Source: Acidobacteriota bacterium (lineage in GTDB: Bacteria; Acidobacteriota; Terriglobia; Bryobacterales; Bryobacteraceae). From it: 64,000 nucleotides of DNA. Made by a program: the position numbers and the translations under genes. Positions 45,587 to 54,205 of the stretch are shown piece after piece (positions within the stretch are counted from its first letter, which is position 1; each line of letters opens with the position of its first letter). Under the pieces are notes generated by a model. It saw only the letters and a program-made list of their open reading frames with translations. It made no database searches and had not been told where the DNA came from. The stretch is from positions 124,001 to 188,000 of the forward strand of contig JAKOTR010000054.1 in the NCBI GenBank assembly GCA_029776225.1. The letters run 5' to 3'.

Positions 45587-45608
45587 TTATATAGGTATGG
45601 CATTTCAC

Positions 45609-45648
45609 AACAATGCTCACGAAGCGGGAAACGCTGGTGAGTATTGTT
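45609..45648. promoter_or_regulatory. 12-bp stem in the leader of the redox operon
   Basis: AACAATGCTCAC (45609-45620) pairs with GTGAGTATTGTT (45637-45648) across 16 nt, with a single G-U wobble. In RNA this would make a stable stem about 110 nt upstream of the first gene. The TTGTTACAAC that ends it is itself a small palindrome. Confidence 0.45.
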
Positions 45649-45687: not shown

Positions 45688-45717
45688 CCGTCGCAACAGT
45701 TGTTACCCACGACGGCC
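45688..45717. promoter_or_regulatory. 7-bp stem close to the redox operon start
   Basis: GCCGTCG (45688-45694) / CGACGGC (45711-45717) with a 16-nt loop containing CAACAG and TTGTTAC. The same two heptamer-like words also occur together at 45644-45655, in the opposite order, suggesting repeated binding sites. Confidence 0.4.
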
Positions 45718-45760
45718 TCCGAAGTGCCCTAATACGGGTGGAAAGCAAGGAGGCCGCACC

Positions 45761-46426
45761 ATGGTAGCTTTACTGGTTCTGGCAACGTTCGTTGTGTTTA
45801 TCACCGTTGATGTCTTACTGCACCGCGAAAAGTACAAGTTCCGCGTGGCAGAAACCGAAACTCCGCAGGCGAAAGACGGGCCCCTACCGGTCGTAGCCGG
45901 TGTCACCCTGCCCGAGGCGCTGGCCTATCACCCCGGCCACGCATGGGCCCTGGATGCCGGTAACGGCAGGATAAGAATAGGCTTAGACGAATTCGCCGCC
46001 AGCCTGCTGGGCTCCATCGAGAAGGTGGAGGTCCCCCAACGCGGACGCTGGTTCCGGCAAGGGGAAAAGGGCTGGTCGGTGATCACCCCCCAGGGCGAAG
46101 CGACGATGCTTGCGCCCGCGGAGGGCGAGATCGTGGCCGTAAACGATAAAGCCCTAGCCGACCCGGCGGTTATCACGAAAGACCCCTACGGCGCCGGCTG
46201 GCTTCTGGAAATCTTCTCTCCGGACACTCAGGTCAGCTTCCGGAATCTGCTCACGGGCGCCTTGGCAAAGAGGTGGATGGAGCAGTCGATGATGGAGCTG
46301 CGCCAGGCCCTCGCCCCGATGGCCACCATGACCGCCCTGGACGGTGGAAGGATATCTCCGCAATTGGGCACTGAATTGCCACAGGAAAAATGGCGTGAGG
46401 TGACCCGGCACTTCTTCCGTTCCTGA
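45761..46426 (+). CDS. Membrane-anchored GcvH-like protein lacking the lipoyl lysine
   Basis: A 221-residue protein. Residues 2-20 form a membrane helix followed by the basic stretch HREKYKFR, so the rest should face the cytoplasm. Residues ~50-150 clearly follow glycine-cleavage H protein: HPGHAWA, IGLDEFAASLLGSIEKVEVP, APAEGEIVAVND and DPYGAGWLLEI. Aligned to E. coli GcvH through APVSGEIVAVN, the lipoylated lysine of ESVKA falls on Gln111 (TPQGEA), so it should not carry lipoate. The C-terminal 70 residues (helical, Met-rich) are extra. AAGGAGG is an excellent ribosome site 7 bases before the ATG. It heads an operon with ferredoxin and NrfD-like genes; a structural or electron-transfer adaptor role is inferred. 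Confidence 0.82.
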   Translation: MVALLVLATFVVFITVDVLLHREKYKFRVAETETPQAKDGPLPVVAGVTLPEALAYHPGHAWALDAGNGRIRIGLDEFAASLLGSIEKVEVPQRGRWFRQGEKGWSVITPQGEATMLAPAEGEIVAVNDKALADPAVITKDPYGAGWLLEIFSPDTQVSFRNLLTGALAKRWMEQSMMELRQALAPMATMTALDGGRISPQLGTELPQEKWREVTRHFFRS

Positions 46427-46440
46427 TTAGGAGATCTTGA

Positions 46441-47202
46441 ATGCGCGCACTACTTTTCGATACTACGCGGTGTGTCGGGTGCGGCTCGTGCATGGTTGCC
46501 TGCCGTGAGAGCAACGGCCTTCCGGAGACGGATGCGCCGGACCTCACGGAGAACCAGTTCACCGTGCTCAAGACCGTTCCCGGCAACGACGGCGACGTAA
46601 CGTACAGGCGATTGTGCATGCACTGCCAGGACCCGACGTGCGCGTCGGTGTGCCCCGTGGGCGCGCTGAAAAAGACGCCCAACGGCCCGGTGGTCTACGA
46701 GCCCGAAATTTGCCTCGGCTGCCGGTACTGCATCCAGGCATGCCCATTCGGCGTGCCTCGTTACGAGTGGTCGTCGCTGGCCCCGCGTGTGCGCAAATGT
46801 ACGTTCTGCGCGGACCGGCTGGCCGCGGGCAAGATCAATGCCTGCGCCGAAGCGTGCCCGACCGGCGCGACGCAGGCCGGCGAGCGCGAAGAATTGCTTA
46901 AAGAAGCGCGGGCGCGCCTGGCAGCCGAACCGGAGAAATACGTTCAGAAGATTTATGGGGAACACGATGCGGGGGGCACGTCGGTCCTGATGCTCTCCTC
47001 GGTGCCCTTCACGCAGCTCGGGCTGCCGGACAATCTGCCCGCCGAGCCGCTGCCGCTGCTGACCTTCCGGGTCCTGTCGAAAATCCCGACCCTCGCCGGG
47101 GCCGGCAGTTGCGTGCTGGCCGGGCTGTGGTGGCTGACCAATAGGAAGGCGGAGGTTGCGAAGGCCGAAGGCCGCGCGCCGCGGAAGGGGGAGCGGCGAT
47201 GA
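46441..47202 (+). CDS. Ferredoxin-like protein with four [4Fe-4S] motifs and a C-terminal membrane anchor
   Basis: A 253-residue HybA/DmsB/NrfC-type electron-transfer subunit. Sixteen cysteines form four cluster motifs: C11/14/17/21 (CVGCGSCMVAC), C59/62/67/71 (CMHC...CASVC), C91/94/97/101 (CLGCRYCIQAC) and C120/123/135/139 (CTFC...CAEAC). A hydrophobic helix near residues 215-237 anchors it. There is no twin-arginine signal, unlike E. coli HybA, so the clusters face the cytoplasm. It lies 14 bp after the GcvH-like gene and overlaps the NrfD-like gene as ATGA, forming a ferredoxin/quinone module with no catalytic subunit nearby. Confidence 0.9.
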   Translation: MRALLFDTTRCVGCGSCMVACRESNGLPETDAPDLTENQFTVLKTVPGNDGDVTYRRLCMHCQDPTCASVCPVGALKKTPNGPVVYEPEICLGCRYCIQACPFGVPRYEWSSLAPRVRKCTFCADRLAAGKINACAEACPTGATQAGEREELLKEARARLAAEPEKYVQKIYGEHDAGGTSVLMLSSVPFTQLGLPDNLPAEPLPLLTFRVLSKIPTLAGAGSCVLAGLWWLTNRKAEVAKAEGRAPRKGERR

Positions 47203-48353
47203 CGAGAGTTCGGGCGATTTTCTGGCGCGTGGTGGCGCTGGCGATCCTGTCGGCGGGCGCCTACAGCACTTGGGTGCGATTCACGCAGGGGCTCGGCGCC
47301 TCGACCAATCTGAGCGACGAGTATCCCTGGGGATTGTGGATCGGCTTCGACATTCTCTGCGGCGTGGGACTGGCCGCCGGGGGATTCGCCATCACGTCGG
47401 CGGTCTATATTCTGCATTTGGAGAAACTCCGGCCGCTGGTGCGGCCTACCGTGCTGACGGCGTTTCTCGGATACTTGCTGGTGATTTGCGGCCTGCTGTT
47501 CGATCTTGGCAGGCCCTGGAACATCTGGCGGGCGGTGGTCTGGTGGAATCCGCGCTCGGTGATGTTTGAAGTCGCCTGGTGCGTGATGCTGTACACGACG
47601 GTGCTGGCGCTGGAGTTCTCGCCGGTTCTTTTTGAGAGGCTCCGGTGGGAGCGCGCGCTCAAGGTAGTCAAGATCATCGTCGTACCGCTGGTGGGGCTGG
47701 GCTTCATTCTCTCGACGCTCCATCAGTCCTCGCTCGGAAGCCTCTACCTGATTCTGCCCACGAAGCTCCATCCGCTCTGGTATTCGCCGCTGTTGCCGGT
47801 GTTGTTCTGGATCTCGGCGGTCGCCGCCGGCCTGGCGATGGTGATCTTTGAGAGCGGCATGAGCGCGCGGGCGTTCGGACGGGCGCTCGAGTTCCATCTG
47901 CTCCAGGGCGTCGCCAAGGTGATGGTGCTGTTCTTGGGGCTGTTCTTGATGGTGCGCCTGTTCGACCTCGGCGCGCGCGGCGTCCTCGGAACGGCGTTCA
48001 CCGGCAGCTACGAAATGGCGATGTTCTGGGTGGAGACCGCCCTGCTCGCCGTGCCGATGGTGCTGGCGGCGTTCCGGAAAATCCGGGCCAACCCGCAGGC
48101 GCTCTTTGCATGTTCCGTGATGGCGGTCGGGGGCTTTCTGGTGAACCGGCTGAACGTTGCGGTGACCGGCCTGGAGGCGTCCGCCGGCGGTCGCTACGTG
48201 CCCTCGTGGATGGAGGTTTCCATCACGCTGTCGCTTGTGGTCGTAGGTTTGGCCGCTTTCCGGTACGCGGCGCAGTATCTGCCGGTATTTCACTCCTTGA
48301 AGTCGGAGGAAGTAAAGGAGGAATTGCCCACCCAGGTGTATGCGCAGCCTTAG
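47199..48353 (+). CDS. NrfD/HybB-family membrane quinone-interacting protein
   Basis: A 384-residue protein with about ten membrane helices of the NrfD/PsrC/HybB family, which exchanges electrons between a partner ferredoxin and the quinone pool. Typical HybB features are YPWGLWIGFDILCGVGLAAGGF near the start, FLGYLLVICGLLFDLGRPWNIW, HPLWYSPLLPVLFWISA and a late GGRYVPSWMEVSIT. These proteins bind no haem but form the quinone site. The stop overlaps the histidine kinase start by 14 bp, so the sensor is translated from the same message. Confidence 0.9.
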   Translation: MTRVRAIFWRVVALAILSAGAYSTWVRFTQGLGASTNLSDEYPWGLWIGFDILCGVGLAAGGFAITSAVYILHLEKLRPLVRPTVLTAFLGYLLVICGLLFDLGRPWNIWRAVVWWNPRSVMFEVAWCVMLYTTVLALEFSPVLFERLRWERALKVVKIIVVPLVGLGFILSTLHQSSLGSLYLILPTKLHPLWYSPLLPVLFWISAVAAGLAMVIFESGMSARAFGRALEFHLLQGVAKVMVLFLGLFLMVRLFDLGARGVLGTAFTGSYEMAMFWVETALLAVPMVLAAFRKIRANPQALFACSVMAVGGFLVNRLNVAVTGLEASAGGRYVPSWMEVSITLSLVVVGLAAFRYAAQYLPVFHSLKSEEVKEELPTQVYAQP

Positions 48354-49941
48354 CGCGAAGCTGATTGCGGGGTTGGTGACGGGCCTGGCCGGCGTGCTCT
48401 TCTGGCTGGGCCTGGCCAACCTCCGTGTACTGCGCCAGAACCTGGAATCCACCGCGCTGCTGGCCGAGCAACGGATGGCCAGCGTGATCTTCCACTCCAC
48501 GCGGAACAGCATGCTGCGGAACGACCGCGAGCAGTTGCTCCAGATCGTTCAGTCGATCGGCGAGGAGCCGGCAGTGCGGCGGATCCGCATCCTGTCCAAG
48601 ACCGGCGAAATCCGGGTCTCGACGCTCCCCGAGGAAGTCGGCCAGATGCTGGACCAGAGGGCGGAGGCCTGTTACCTGTGCCACGCCACTTCGCAGCCGC
48701 TCACCAAACCGGACGCCAATCAGACTTACCGCTTTTACCGGATGAACGGCGAGCGCGTGATCGGGCTGATCCGCCCGATTGAAAACGAGCCGGCGTGTTC
48801 CGACGCCGCCTGCCATGCCCACCCGCCCTCGCAGCGCATTCTCGGCGTGCTCGACGTGGTGCTGTCGCTTGCCTCCGTAGACCAGGAGCTTGCCGCGCAC
48901 GAACGCCGCATGATCGCGCAGGTCACACTTTCCGCTGGCCTGATGATGGCGATGGCTTCGCTGCTGGTGTGGTTGCTGGTCAGCCGTCCCATCCGCCGCC
49001 TCATCGCCGGCGTGAAAATCCTCGGCTCGCGCCAGTTGAGCTACCGGTTCCGGCTCAAGCGCCGGGACGAAATCGGCGAGCTGGCCGCCGCGTTCGACAA
49101 CATGGCCGAGGAACTCCAGCAGGCCAATGACACCCTCGAAGAGCGCATACGCCGCAAGACCGCGGAGCTCGAAGCAGCGCAGGAGAAACTGATCCATTCG
49201 GAAAAGCTGGCCTCGCTCGGGGAACTCTCAGCCGCCGTAGCTCACGAGATCAACAACCCACTGGCCGGCATCGCTACCTACGCGCGTTTGCTCGAGAAGA
49301 AACTGGCCCCGCCGAAACCCGCGCTGGAGTGGATCCAGATCATCCAGCGGGAGAGTAAGCGCTGCGGCGAGATCGTCAACAACCTGCTGGTGTTCGCCCG
49401 CAAGCACAACACCGAGATGGCGCCCGCCGCCGTGAAAACAATCGTCGACCGCACGGTGGCGGTGGTGCAGCACAAGCTGCAGATGCACTCGGTTGAGTTG
49501 GAAACCGATGTGGCCGAACTGCCTTCCATCTATTGCGACGCCTCGCAGATCCAGCAGGTGCTGATCGCGATCATCATGAATGCCGTGGACGCGATCGCGA
49601 GCCAGGGTCCCAAGGGCGGCAACGTGCGCATCCGGGCGGCGATGCACGATGAAGCGCGGGTGGATATCGCCGTGACCAACGACGGTCCGCCCATACCGAA
49701 GGAAGTGCTGCCGCACATCTTCGAGCCTTTCTTCAGCACCAAACCGGCGGCTTCGGGCGTCGGGCTCGGGCTCGCCGTCGCATATGGAATTGTGAAGCGG
49801 CACGGAGGGGAGATCCAGGTGGAAACCGGCCCGGAGACGACATTCCACGTCATCCTGCCGGTCGGAGCGCCCCCCGGCGAAGCCAAGAAAACGGAGATTA
49901 CCGATGTCGGAAGAGAAACTGTCCATACTGATCGTCGATGA
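48340..49941 (+). CDS. Histidine kinase with c-type-heme motifs in its periplasmic domain
   Basis: A 533-residue membrane sensor kinase. TM1 is at ~7-27 and TM2 at ~192-214, enclosing a periplasmic domain of about 165 residues with CYLCH (111-115, a perfect CxxCH heme-attachment motif) and CSDAACH (153-159, Cx4CH, a less usual form). A HAMP linker and coiled coil follow. The H-box has His302 in SAAVAHEINNPLAG, and the ATPase domain has IMNAVDAI and GVGLGLAVAYGIV. It overlaps the next regulator gene by 38 bp. A heme-based sensor of redox potential or a small gas is the obvious inference; Geobacter heme-PAS sensors are a precedent. Confidence 0.9.
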   Translation: MRSLSAKLIAGLVTGLAGVLFWLGLANLRVLRQNLESTALLAEQRMASVIFHSTRNSMLRNDREQLLQIVQSIGEEPAVRRIRILSKTGEIRVSTLPEEVGQMLDQRAEACYLCHATSQPLTKPDANQTYRFYRMNGERVIGLIRPIENEPACSDAACHAHPPSQRILGVLDVVLSLASVDQELAAHERRMIAQVTLSAGLMMAMASLLVWLLVSRPIRRLIAGVKILGSRQLSYRFRLKRRDEIGELAAAFDNMAEELQQANDTLEERIRRKTAELEAAQEKLIHSEKLASLGELSAAVAHEINNPLAGIATYARLLEKKLAPPKPALEWIQIIQRESKRCGEIVNNLLVFARKHNTEMAPAAVKTIVDRTVAVVQHKLQMHSVELETDVAELPSIYCDASQIQQVLIAIIMNAVDAIASQGPKGGNVRIRAAMHDEARVDIAVTNDGPPIPKEVLPHIFEPFFSTKPAASGVGLGLAVAYGIVKRHGGEIQVETGPETTFHVILPVGAPPGEAKKTEITDVGRETVHTDRR

Positions 49942-51262
49942 CGAGGAGGTCGTCCGCGACTCGCTCGTACACTGGTTTACCGAGGAGGGCTACGATGTCG
50001 ACTCCTCGGCCAGCGCGCCGGACGCGCTGTCGAAACTGGCCGGACGCGAATTTGATCTCGTGATCGCCGATATCCGAATGCCCGGTATGGATGGCATCGA
50101 GCTGCTGGAAAAGATCCGCTCCGAGCAGCTCGACACAAGCGTGATCGTCATGACCGGCTACGCTTCGGTGGAAACGGCCGTGCGCGCCCTCAAGCACGGC
50201 GCTTTCGACTACATCACCAAGCCCTTCGACCCGGACGACCTTTCGGTGGTGGTGCGCAACGCGCTGGAGCAGCACAGGCTGAAACGCGAGAACCGCATGC
50301 TGCGGCAGCAGCTCACCGAGGAGGCCTCGCTCAACGAACTAATCGGCGGGAGCGACGCCATGCGCCGCGTGCGCGAGCAGATCGAAACCGTAGCCGGCGT
50401 CGATTCCACCGTGCTGATTGAGGGCGAAAGCGGCACCGGCAAGGAACTGGTGGCTCGGGCCATCCACCGCCTGAGCCCCCGCCGGTACAACCCCATGGTG
50501 GTGGTCCATTGCGGCGCGCTGACGGAAACGCTCATCGAAAGCGAGCTGTTCGGACACGAAAAGGGCGCGTTCACCGGCGCGCAGTACCGCAAGAAAGGCA
50601 AATTCGAAGCCGCCATGGGAGGCACCGTCTTCCTGGACGAGATCGCCGATATCAGCCTGAAAACTCAGACCGATCTGCTGCGGGTCCTCCAGGAGCGGGA
50701 AATCGTGCGGGTAGGCGGAACGCAAGCGATCAAGGTGGATTTCCGCGTGATCGCCGCGTCGAACCGCAACCTTGCGGAGATCGTGAAGGAGGGCAAGTTC
50801 CGCTCGGACCTCTTCTACCGCCTGAACGTCTTCACGATCCATCTGCCGCCCCTGCGCGAACGGCACGGCGACATCCCCCTACTCGCTACCCATTTCCTGG
50901 ATAAGTACAGCACCCAGATGAACCGCAAGTTCACCGGCTTCGACCGCGCGGCGATGGACATGCTCATCGCCCACAACTGGCCGGGGAACGTGCGGGAACT
51001 GGAGAATATCGTGGAGCGCGCCGTGGTCGTGGGGCACGAGCCGCTGATCCGGGCGCACGATCTGGCGCTGCCCCGCCCCGCGGAAGGCGCCGAGGACCTG
51101 AGTCTCGAAAGCGTGGAGCGCCGGCACATCGTGCGCGTGCTCGAAGACTTCGGCTGGAACCAGACTCAGGCCGCCAAAGCGCTGGGCATCGATCGCGTGA
51201 CCTTGTACCACAAGATCCGCAGGTATGGCCTGAAGCCGCCCGCCAAAGCGGCCCGCGTCTGA
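49904..51262 (+). CDS. NtrC-family sigma54-dependent response regulator
   Basis: A 452-residue cytoplasmic activator. The receiver domain (1-120) has the acidic pair DDEE, phosphorylation site Asp56 in VIADIRMPG, and the KPF lysine near 106. The AAA+ domain has Walker A GESGTGKE (174-181), the sigma54-contacting loop GAFTGA (221-226), Walker B GTVFLDEI and the arginine-containing RLNVFTIHLPPLRER. A Fis-type HTH closes it (NQTQAAKALGIDRVTLYHKI). It is co-encoded with the heme kinase, its likely partner. A sigma54 promoter at 51861, before the radical SAM gene, is a probable target. Confidence 0.94.
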   Translation: MSEEKLSILIVDDEEVVRDSLVHWFTEEGYDVDSSASAPDALSKLAGREFDLVIADIRMPGMDGIELLEKIRSEQLDTSVIVMTGYASVETAVRALKHGAFDYITKPFDPDDLSVVVRNALEQHRLKRENRMLRQQLTEEASLNELIGGSDAMRRVREQIETVAGVDSTVLIEGESGTGKELVARAIHRLSPRRYNPMVVVHCGALTETLIESELFGHEKGAFTGAQYRKKGKFEAAMGGTVFLDEIADISLKTQTDLLRVLQEREIVRVGGTQAIKVDFRVIAASNRNLAEIVKEGKFRSDLFYRLNVFTIHLPPLRERHGDIPLLATHFLDKYSTQMNRKFTGFDRAAMDMLIAHNWPGNVRELENIVERAVVVGHEPLIRAHDLALPRPAEGAEDLSLESVERRHIVRVLEDFGWNQTQAAKALGIDRVTLYHKIRRYGLKPPAKAARV

Positions 51263-51283: not shown

Positions 51284-51799
51284 GTGATTCTGGTTCCTGT
51301 GGGTGAGTTCCCGGAGTGGCTGCTGGCGCGGCTTTCGCGCCGCACCCGCATCCCGCTCGGCCCCCCGCGCGTGGATCCGGCCGTCGCCTGGAACCCGGGC
51401 CGGGGGCAATATGATTCCAACCGGCTGCTGGCCGAGCTGAAGGCGCACTACGACGGCGTGGTGATCGGCGCTACCGCGTGCGACCTCTTCATCCCGGTCC
51501 TGACGTTCGTGTTCGGCGAGGCGGAGATGCGGGGGCGCGCCGCCATCTTTTCGATTCACCGGTTGCGAGAGGAGTTTTACGGCCTGCCGGAGAACGCCAG
51601 GCTGCTCGAAAGCCGTGCGTTGCGTGAACTGCTGCACGAACTCGGACACCTCAGAGGCCTGGCGCACTGTCAGGACTGGTCCTGCATCATGAGTTCGGCG
51701 CACTCGGTCGAGCGCGTCGACACCCGCGGCGATAAGTTCTGCCACGACTGCCGCCTCAAGCTGGAAGCCGCCGGAGCAGCGCATGGCGTGCCGGCTTGA
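51284..51799 (+). CDS. Archaemetzincin-like zinc metalloprotease
   Basis: A 171-residue protein with the archaemetzincin signature HELGHLRGLAHC (residues 118-129), then Cx4C...M (C134, M136) and CHDC (153-156). This matches HExxHxxGxxHCx4CxM...CxxC, apart from one residue less before the final CxxC. The first three histidines bind the catalytic zinc and the four cysteines a structural zinc. No signal peptide is visible, so it should be cytoplasmic, like other members of the family. It starts 21 bp after the NtrC-type gene (GTG start) and is likely cotranscribed. The target protein is unknown. Confidence 0.88.
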   Translation: MILVPVGEFPEWLLARLSRRTRIPLGPPRVDPAVAWNPGRGQYDSNRLLAELKAHYDGVVIGATACDLFIPVLTFVFGEAEMRGRAAIFSIHRLREEFYGLPENARLLESRALRELLHELGHLRGLAHCQDWSCIMSSAHSVERVDTRGDKFCHDCRLKLEAAGAAHGVPA

Positions 51800-51860
51800 G
51801 TTAAGGGGCGTTGCAGCGGCTTGTGTGCGCTGCGCGGGCCACACCCCGGCTTTCCGGAAG

Positions 51861-51876
51861 TGGCCTTTGAATTGCT
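51861..51876 (+). promoter_or_regulatory. Sigma54 (-24/-12) promoter
   Basis: TGGCctttgaaTTGCT fits the consensus TGGCAC-N5-TTGCW closely, and the invariant GG and GC are exactly ten bases apart (51862-51863 and 51874-51875). Transcription should start near 51886, about 25 bases before the radical SAM start. An inverted repeat GCAGCG / CGCTGC (51813-51818, 51828-51833) upstream could bind the activator. The NtrC-type gene ends 600 bp upstream. Confidence 0.7.
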
Positions 51877-51910
51877 CCGTGTACAGTGAGCAAAGAGGAG
51901 AAAAGGGCCC

Positions 51911-52960
51911 GTGAGGAATTTCGACGAAGCTCCGTTTCTGGTGATCTGGGAGGTGACGCGCGCCTGCGACCTTGCCTGCGTCCACTGCCGCGCCTCGGCC
52001 GATCCCGTGCGGCACCCGTTGGAACTCACCACCGAGGAAGGCTTCCGCCTGCTGGAAACCATCCGGGAGTTCGGCGACCCGATCATGATCTTCACCGGCG
52101 GCGACCCGCTCAAGCGGCCGGACCTTTTCCAGCTTCTGGAAAAGAGCGTCCAGCTCGGGCTGCGCACTACTCTTTCACCGAGTCCCACCCCGCTGCTCAC
52201 CGCGGACGCTATCGCGGGCTTCAAGCGCGTGGGAGTGGCCCGCATCTCGATTTCCGTGGACGGCTGGGATGCCGCTTCCCACGACAATTTCCGGCAGGTT
52301 CCGGGCTCGTTCGACCGCGCCATCTTCGCTCTCGAAGAAGCCCGGCGCATCGGGCTTTCCACCCAGATCAACACCACCGTCAGCCGGCACAACTACCGCC
52401 GCCTGGGCGAAATCGCCGATCTGGTTGACCGCACCGGCTCGGATATGTGGGACGTCTTTTTCCTCGTGCCGACCGGGCGCGGCGCCTCGCAGCAGGAACT
52501 TAACGCCGAAGAGTTCGAGGAAGTTTTCAACTTCCTTTACGAGCGCTCGAAAACCTCCCGCGCCGTGATCAAGACCACCGAGGCGATGCACTACCGGCGG
52601 TACTTGATGCAGCGGCGCAAGGCGGAGGGAGGCAGCAACGGCAAGAAGCATCCCGGCGACAACCCCCTGAACCGCATGGCAGGCATCAACAGCGGCCGCG
52701 GCTTCGTTTTCATCTCGAGGACCGGCGAGATTTACCCGAGCGGGTTTTTGCCGATCTCCTCGGGCAACGTGCGGCGGCACTCGCTGGTGGATGTCTACCG
52801 CAACGGGGCGCTGTTCCGCGTGCTGCGCGACAGCTCGTGCTTGAAAGGAAAGTGCGGCCTTTGCCAGTACCGCAACCTCTGCGGCGGCTCGCGTTCGCGC
52901 GCCTACGCCCTCACGGGCGATTACCTGGCCGAAGAGCCGCGGTGCATCCATCAACCCTGA
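51911..52960 (+). CDS. Radical SAM/SPASM-like enzyme
   Basis: A 349-residue radical SAM protein. The catalytic [4Fe-4S] motif is CDLACVHC (C19, C23, C26), followed by FTGGDPLKRPDLFQL, SISVDGWDAASHD and the SAM-binding QINTTVSRHN region. The C-terminus has CLKGKCGLCQYRNLCGGS and a final cysteine in EEPRC, a SPASM/twitch-like auxiliary cluster region. The layout resembles the TIGR04053/NirJ/AhbD-like group acting on peptides or tetrapyrroles, but the substrate is unknown. The GTG start has an AGAGGAG site and is driven from a sigma54 promoter. The archaemetzincin gene lies 111 bp upstream, and arsR-arsM follow with their own promoter. Confidence 0.88.
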   Translation: MRNFDEAPFLVIWEVTRACDLACVHCRASADPVRHPLELTTEEGFRLLETIREFGDPIMIFTGGDPLKRPDLFQLLEKSVQLGLRTTLSPSPTPLLTADAIAGFKRVGVARISISVDGWDAASHDNFRQVPGSFDRAIFALEEARRIGLSTQINTTVSRHNYRRLGEIADLVDRTGSDMWDVFFLVPTGRGASQQELNAEEFEEVFNFLYERSKTSRAVIKTTEAMHYRRYLMQRRKAEGGSNGKKHPGDNPLNRMAGINSGRGFVFISRTGEIYPSGFLPISSGNVRRHSLVDVYRNGALFRVLRDSSCLKGKCGLCQYRNLCGGSRSRAYALTGDYLAEEPRCIHQP

Positions 52961-52993: not shown

Positions 52994-53029
52994 TTGCTGA
53001 CTTCGATATTTCTGCTATTGTAGAAATAT
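52994..53029 (+). promoter_or_regulatory. arsR promoter and overlapping ArsR operator
   Basis: TTGCTG (52994-52999), 16 bp, TATTGT (53016-53021) form a sigma70-like promoter. The perfect inverted repeat ATATTTCT (53006-53013) / AGAAATAT (53022-53029) with an 8-bp spacer straddles the -10 and reaches into the arsR ATG at 53028. The arrangement fits ArsR autorepression, and the transcription start should fall at the ATG itself (leaderless message). Confidence 0.7.
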
Positions 53030-53393
53030 GAAAGTGAGGCAGGCCGACGTCGCCCGCTACGCGGATATGTTCGCCGCCATCGGCGCCGAACCCAGGCTCC
53101 GCATCCTGCGCCTGCTGCTCTCCGCTCATCCCGACGGTATGGTGGCCGGCGACATACAGGCCGAGCTGGAGATTCCCGGCTCCACGCTCTCCCATCACCT
53201 GGAGAAGCTGAAGAACGAGAATCTCATCTCGGTACGGCGCGACCGGCAATTCCTCTGGTACTCGGCCAACACCGAAACGCTGACGGAACTGCTGGCCTTT
53301 TTGTACTCCGAATGCTGTTCCCGAAGCTGCGCCGTGCGGCCGGAAAGCATTGTGGTCCCCCTGAAACCCTCGACTAAGAAAGGCAACCCATGA
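53028..53393 (+). CDS. arsR: ArsR-family transcriptional repressor (arsenite-responsive)
   Basis: A 121-residue winged-helix repressor. The DNA-recognition helix lies in [20 protein letters not shown] (about 52-71). The C-terminal YSECCSRSC places Cys96, Cys97 and Cys101 together, like the C-terminal As(III) site described for Acidithiobacillus ArsR, rather than the CxCxxC of plasmid R773 ArsR. Arsenite or antimonite binding would release it from the operator. The stop overlaps the arsM start as ATGA, and the operator overlaps its own promoter, so the pair is autoregulated. Confidence 0.92.
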
Positions 53394-54205
53394 ATTCCGA
53401 GATCAAACAAGTTGTGAAGGAGAAATACGGGCAGGCGGCTTTGCGCGTCGTCAGCGGCGGTTCCACCTCGTGCTGCGGCGGATTCGCATCCGACTGCAAC
53501 CCGATCACCTCGAACCTGTACGGAAGCGAAGTGTCGCAGATTCCCGAGCAGGCCGTGCTTGCCTCGCTCGGCTGCGGCAATCCGACCGCGCTGGCCGAGC
53601 TCAAGCCCGGCGAGACGGTGCTCGATCTCGGCTCCGGCGGCGGCATCGATGTGCTGCTCTCGGCTCGCCGCGTGGGCCCAACCGGAAAAGCCTACGGGCT
53701 CGATATGACAGACGAGATGCTGGCGCTGGCGCGCGAAAACCAGCGCAAATCGGGCCTGACGAATGTCGAGTTTCTGAAAGGCGAAATCGAGAACATTCCC
53801 CTGCCCGACAACTCGGTCGATGTGATCATCTCCAACTGCGTGATCAATCTCTCGGCGGACAAGGACCGCGTGCTGGCGGAGGCATTCCGCGTGCTTCGTC
53901 CGGGCGGCCGGCTGGCGATATCCGATATCGTCACGCGAGGTGAGATCCCGGCCGAAATCCGGCGCAACGTGGAACTGTGGATCGGCTGTTTGGCCGGGGC
54001 GCTCGACGAATCCGAGTACGTCAACAAGCTCGCGGCGGCGGGCTTTACCGAGATCGGCGTCGAGCCTACCCGAATCTACCGCGCTGAGGACGCCCGCGAG
54101 TTCCTCACCGCCAGTGGAATCGACGTCGAGGCCGCCGCCCCGCAAATCGACGGAAAGTTCATGAGCGCGTTCGTGCGCGCGCGCAAACCGTTGAACGTTC
54201 GTTGA
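53390..54205 (+). CDS. arsM: Arsenite S-adenosylmethionine methyltransferase
   Basis: ArsM methylates As(III) to mono- and dimethyl species. The 271-residue protein has the family's SAM fold: [20 protein letters not shown] (residues ~77-96), [12 protein letters not shown] and [13 protein letters not shown]. The three As-binding cysteines are recognisable as Cys62 (SLGCGNP), Cys150 (SNCVINLS) and Cys200 (WIGCLAGA). An additional N-terminal CCGGF pair (28-29) is typical of bacterial ArsM. It is translationally coupled to arsR and has no efflux gene partner in the window, so methylation is the only arsenic defence seen here. Confidence 0.94.

Follow-up and report, generated by a model that had tools for sequence, protein, structure and literature searches.

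The heme-motif histidine kinase and the NtrC-type response regulator encoded at this locus appear, from comparison of related genomes, to have their well-conserved target mainly in the promoter of their own operon. We consider it moderately probable that the pair autoregulates this operon from positions 45713 to 45728, that the radical SAM gene behind the operon was appended to it and is reached by read-through, and that the promoter-like site at 51861 to 51876, in front of the radical SAM gene, is a secondary internal promoter. What began as a single promoter-like match thereby becomes a testable regulon with a defined operon promoter and operator, conserved across the order and partly beyond it.

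The window, that is, the whole stretch of 64,000 nucleotides analyzed here, belongs to a genome of 5.18 Mb in 115 contigs. It contains the six genes of the operon and, behind them, the radical SAM gene:

45761 to 46426, plus strand, GcvH-like protein with a hydrophobic N-terminus, first gene of the operon (Pfam GCV_H)
46441 to 47202, plus strand, HmcB/HybA-like 4Fe-4S protein (Pfam; NCBIfam match below the cut-off)
47199 to 48353, plus strand, NrfD/HmcC-like membrane subunit (Pfam NrfD; NCBIfam match below the cut-off)
48340 to 49941, plus strand, sensor histidine kinase with two c-type heme motifs, CYLCH and CSDAACH (Pfam HAMP, HisKA and HATPase; motifs)
49904 to 51262, plus strand, NtrC-type response regulator with GAFTGA (Pfam; motif)
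51284 to 51799, plus strand, archaemetzincin-family (peptidase M54) gene that closes the conserved operon (Pfam M54; operon conservation)
51911 to 52960, plus strand, radical SAM/SPASM gene of the TIGR04053 family (NCBIfam, 450 bits versus a cut-off of 395)

The initial annotation regarded the regulator as the likely activator, and the protein has what this role calls for: receiver, sigma-54 AAA+ and Fis-type HTH domains were found together with the GAFTGA motif. Both heme motifs (CxxCH and CxxxxCH) are present in 17 of the 18 recognized kinases, the window's included; we know of no signal sensed by this kinase. The Fe-S and NrfD proteins resemble Hmc/Hyb-type modules, with HmcB and HmcC as their best NCBIfam matches, but the equivalog cut-offs are not reached (251.9 versus 420 and 318.9 versus 550). 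What sets them apart from Hmc/Hyb modules is their linkage to the GcvH-like protein, to the kinase and its two heme motifs, and to the regulator and archaemetzincin. By the NCBIfam names, AhbD heme b synthase and NirJ are relatives of the TIGR04053 family to which the radical SAM protein conforms; the window's protein stays below the cut-offs for both. Directly 3' of the radical SAM gene (53028 to 54205) lie an ArsR-type repressor gene and an arsenite-methyltransferase-like (ArsM-like) gene, followed by pho/pst genes, the latter named by eye.

Two features upstream of the first gene carry the argument for autoregulation:

45596 to 45612, no strand assigned, candidate regulator operator TATGGCATTTCACAACA, a degenerate TGTTG-N7-CAACA (12.8 bits with the matrix that was also applied outside the order)
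45713 to 45728, plus strand, operon sigma-54 promoter CGGCCTCCGAAGTGCC (matrix score 1.1, which is low; all 53 operons conserve its position and core)

Comparison across the order shows the class of both features at the level of sequence. From 58 operon sources, five without a GcvH match were dropped, leaving 53. In another step, three of 40 regions sought did not exist. The core [TC]GG-N9-TG[CT] stands near -90 to -20 in all 53 operons, the window's included, compared with 0 to 2 of the 53 at each of eight other spacings; any GG-N10-GC in the promoter region was found in 49 of 53. The window's own promoter has CGG in place of TGG. The TGTTG-N7-CAACA operator rose above the 95% shuffle level in 52 of 53 operons when held out, a test in which relatives remain in training and the motif was seeded from the consensus visible in the same 53 regions, a circularity that holding out and the loci beyond the order lessen. 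Its information amounts to 17.1 bits, versus 7.0 to 7.7 bits in five shuffled sets, and at least 16 bits were reached in 37 of 53 operons versus nine of 228 control genes (the matrix having 49 of the 53 as its training set). For the window, TATGGCATTTCACAACA scored 13.0 bits (p 0.005 against shuffles) after exclusion of the window operon and of L208-L210 from training. A scan of the window's own genome for TGTNG-N7-CNACA as a regulon was set aside; its 55 places, versus 20 for the reversed pattern, were too many.

The gene order is conserved as well. Twenty further loci from the order were compared: 18 have the histidine kinase, response regulator and archaemetzincin genes side by side, and 13 of these 18 contain the complete set of six. 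None of the 20 has a radical SAM relative clustered with the operon, some of the contigs ending soon past it. Outside the order, NrfD matches at 1e-60 occur in 120 of 396 genomes of the phylum, possibly representing more than one kind of NrfD. Among 20 of the best-matching loci there, 16 contain the Fe-S, NrfD, kinase, regulator and archaemetzincin genes, two are cut by contig ends, and L323 and L324, whose starts were wrongly placed, differ. Five of the 20 lacked a GcvH match, leaving 15 scanned loci; with the matrix fixed beforehand, the operator exceeded the shuffle level in 10 of these, and the sigma-54 core was present in 11 (in eight cases between -46 and -81 relative to a reliable start) versus 1 to 3 of 15 at other spacings. 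L308, L309 and L311 have neither operator nor core at the expected place.

We hypothesize that the kinase, presumably using heme as its sensor, phosphorylates the regulator and that the two proteins activate their own six-gene operon from 45713 to 45728, the regulator binding an upstream operator near 45596 to 45612. The TIGR04053 radical SAM gene would have joined the 3' end of the operon, behind the archaemetzincin gene, in the window's genus; appended there, it would be expressed with the operon by read-through. A radical SAM gene 3' of the operon is found in the window and in its same-genus relative (genome G001, locus L032), which preserves the order kinase, regulator, archaemetzincin, radical SAM. 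In that genome the archaemetzincin frame (1930 to 2442) even overlaps the radical SAM start at 2426. The site at 51861 to 51876 may, as a secondary internal promoter, raise radical SAM transcription on its own.

How does this arrangement compare with known systems? An excerpt of the Desulfovibrio vulgaris regulome study (PMC4641369) gives tGGcacg / tTGCt as the consensus for sigma-54 promoters and proposes autoregulation of DVU1949 with a conserved upstream motif. As far as this excerpt goes, the window resembles those systems in the GG-N10-GC core, in that consensus and in the combination of RpoN with a GAFTGA activator, and we propose autoregulation for the operon here. It differs from them in organism group, genes and operator motif, and in that the site before the radical SAM gene lacks both a recognizable operator and conservation among the nearest relatives. 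Literature searches gave no match for TIGR04053, none for archaemetzincin together with sigma-54, none for Bryobacterales with transcription and two-component terms, and no paper matching the GcvH/NrfD/kinase/sigma-54 combination with GcvH; no title among the matches concerned an operon of GcvH-like, NrfD, kinase and regulator genes. The string 'acidobacteri' does not occur in the main text of PMC12316311.

The region in front of the radical SAM gene contains the following features:

51813 to 51833, no strand assigned, inverted repeat GCAGCG-N9-CGCTGC, half-sites 51813 to 51818 and 51828 to 51833
51861 to 51876, plus strand, candidate internal sigma-54 promoter TGGCCTTTGAATTGCT, top matrix score in the window
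51894 to 51900, plus strand, ribosome-binding-site-like AGAGGAG, 10 nt 5' of the GTG

The letters and distances had been read correctly. TGGC-N7-TTGCT with the exact GG-N10-GC spacing is present; it ends 34 nt before the GTG start at 51911, for which AGAGGAG makes a good ribosome site. The inverted repeat exists, 27 nt upstream of the -24 element. Between the end of the activator gene at 51262 and the site are 598 nt, which include the archaemetzincin gene. The gap between archaemetzincin and radical SAM genes, which contains the site, measures 111 nt; in a homology search against the other fetched loci it gave only short, chance-level matches. Neither terminator-like nor sigma-70 sites were found in 51700 to 51960. 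The genome encodes RpoN (PF04552 match, 3.0e-58 in the genome profile search).

The most serious rival explanation, to which we give somewhat less than an even chance, is that 51861 to 51876 is a chance match without function and that read-through from the operon is the sole source of radical SAM transcripts. The initial annotation had called the pattern rare by chance, which is overstated, since 0.45 matches are expected per window and at least one appeared in 37 of 100 shuffles. We scored promoters with a sigma-54 matrix made by hand after the published consensus and not fitted to data. The site, the best match to it in the whole window, gives the radical SAM gene a score of 13.7 at -60 to -25, the sole one above 7.1 among the 61 called genes of the window. 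A score of at least 13.6 was reached by five of 807 control genes in related loci, which puts the chance level at about 0.4 genes per 61, an upper figure because some controls possibly have true sigma-54 promoters. Against a chance match speak this single hit, the good ribosome site and the position in a short gap ahead of a gene in whose family sigma-54 promoters recur at such a distance. The site is notable by its placement and not by the rarity of its pattern; it is well placed, and a chance origin is possible from the window alone. Counts of TGGC-N7-TTGCW by spacing in the whole genome were dropped as a means of deciding on the site, as forward counts (83 at N7, 68 at N8 and 50 at N6) and those for the reversed patterns (108, 116 and 50) did not decide.

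Close relatives also speak for a chance match, as does the lack of a recognizable operator before this gene. No sigma-54 site precedes the radical SAM gene in the same-genus genome, where there is no gap between the genes, and none was found in the three next-closest orthologues (L004, L098 and L099); in a sister group such sites are frequent. In a quick tree, in which many forks are weakly supported and some branches are long (L008 included), the window copy and L003, L098, L004, L099 and L008 make up a supported six-row group, where only L008 besides the window copy has a site, a weak one. The site is at best a secondary internal promoter, and we put the odds of its being active at about even because of the five control genes with such scores and because promoters of this type are common in the family but not in the window's branch.

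In the family at large, the sigma-54 promoters predicted before TIGR04053 genes are, by the constancy of their spacing, in our judgment real. Of 257 genomes from the order, 117 have radical SAM matches (E <= 1e-90, distant paralogues included). Among 96 non-redundant upstream regions (at least 52% identity, the window's included), 39 score at least 8 at -60 to -25 with GG-N10-GC, compared with 0 to 4 of 96 for spacers N7-N9 and N11-N13 and with 23 of the 807 control genes. Gene calls and starts in the related loci come from a simple codon-usage script rather than a gene finder, and partial radical SAM matches in G162, G186, G192 and G196 were left out. After removal of eight rows under 50% identity from 105, we classed 97 orthologues: 41 have a sigma-54 promoter (counting L096, which scores 8.7, has an internal stop and is probably a chance case), 35 the palindrome GTGAC-N4-GTCAC, six both and 15 neither. 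Seventeen of the 41, the window copy among them, reach a score of 13.7. The palindrome resembles a Crp/Fnr-type site. The promoters of this family are thus of palindrome or sigma-54 type, the window copy having a candidate of the latter, and control of one radical SAM family seems to differ within a single bacterial order. The tree gathers 47 rows in one supported group (SH-aLRT 99) with 38 sigma-54, four both, four none and one palindrome; 38 of the 41 sigma-54-class orthologues lie within it, and the window copy lies outside. Across 25 compared loci, the radical SAM gene mostly has different neighbors, a RIC-like one occurring in four.

A second TIGR04053-like copy, 67% identical, exists in the window's genome (L095; G000:C62:42494-55540). 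It has the GTGAC-N4-GTCAC palindrome and is divergent from a ScdA/hemerythrin (RIC-like) gene, with a Crp-family gene about 5 kb away. Of the six orthologues that carry both signals, L111, L115 and L161 and less clearly L107 have the GG of their -24 element within the palindrome, where the right half begins; this overlap possibly links the two promoter types.

Might the regulator also act on radical SAM genes elsewhere? Operator-like matches of at least 5 bits at -115 to -60 of sigma-54-class copies were found in 11 of 31 cases with the operon in the genome versus 0 of 12 without it (Fisher p 0.019), "operon present" meaning a regulator match at 1e-160 or an NrfD match at 1e-40, with L002, L096, L107 and L195 left out. 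The best match had 21.6 bits. Such matches occurred at 1.7% in shuffles, in one of 35 palindrome-class and in 0 of 15 unclassed copies. All 11 hits come from one 27-row part of the tree, and since they are related to each other, so that ancestry confounds the association, the operator-like sites before these unlinked copies support a shared regulon but fall short of proof. The operon's NrfD was not found at 1e-40 in 12 of 20 queried genomes, some of them incomplete assemblies, and all 12 have a sigma-54-class radical SAM promoter; some of these promoters therefore probably answer to another activator.

A wider reading joins these observations. In it, a self-activating sigma-54 redox circuit would span the Acidobacteriota, made up of the kinase with its two heme motifs in the periplasm, the NtrC-type regulator, electron-transfer proteins of the membrane that resemble Hmc, the GcvH-like protein and the archaemetzincin. 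This circuit would have recruited the radical SAM gene both through an operator in trans before unlinked copies and through fusion to the operon's 3' end in the window's genus, and in parallel the radical SAM promoter would have been converted in place from a Crp/Fnr type to a -24/-12 type. We regard this joint reading as doubtful.

We consider it improbable that the adjacent NtrC-type regulator activates 51861 to 51876 as a dedicated target, perhaps from the repeat at 51813 to 51833. Adjacency, the GAFTGA motif and the trans association just described favor such a role. However, the TGTTG-N7-CAACA operator was not found before the window's radical SAM gene (best match -0.5 bits in the 240 nt upstream of the site, p 0.33), the association is confounded by ancestry, and the 12 genomes in which NrfD was not found weigh against it. 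The repeat, previously suggested as the binding site of the NtrC-type protein, resembles neither TGTTG-N7-CAACA nor the TGGGKSAWWTSMCCCA element found before other family members, and was rejected as an operator after scans with both; an operator of another type may lie upstream of the site. The initial annotation had presented TGGCCTTTGAATTGCT as a concrete target of the two-component pair. The comparison does not support this claim, given that the site has no such operator, the same-genus relative has no site, and the window copy falls outside the sigma-54 group. We caution that a -24/-12 site of textbook appearance beside an activator gene is not necessarily that activator's conserved target.

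That some other activator uses 51861 to 51876, for example a PAS-domain sigma-54 activator encoded elsewhere in the genome (L296:2575-3981, G000:C83), is very unlikely: although the TGGGKSAWWTSMCCCA palindrome (at least 14 of 16 positions) precedes 26 of 41 sigma-54-class orthologues, before the window's radical SAM gene it is absent (best 10 of 16), the contact motif of the PAS activator is GAFTDA, not GAFTGA, and by eye there is no GG-N10-GC between that gene and the element copy upstream of it. Autoregulation of the operon with read-through into the radical SAM gene remains our preferred reading.

Besides the sigma-54 class, the TGGGKSAWWTSMCCCA element was found in three of six orthologues with both signals, one of 35 of the palindrome class and one of 15 unclassed; the upstream regions counted here by class are also those in which its consensus had been recognized by eye. 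Of its 26 copies in the sigma-54 class, 23 lie 55 to 80 nt 5' of the -24 element or at 76 to 80. The window's genome has two exact copies, one of which (TGGGTGATTTCACCCA) begins 66 nt 5' of the PAS/sigma-54-AAA/HTH gene; the extra copies of the element pointed to this candidate activator, not to the window's radical SAM gene. Several of these copies have neighbors with no evident link (L233, L242, L243 and L298). Others stand before small DUF1858-like and CoA-ligase-like genes (L237-L240, where the DUF1858 match of L237 is below its cut-off, L238 was scanned for the ligase and the other names were given by eye), before cytochrome-like and Fe-S genes (L229) and before hypC/hypD/hypE-like genes (L297; named by eye).
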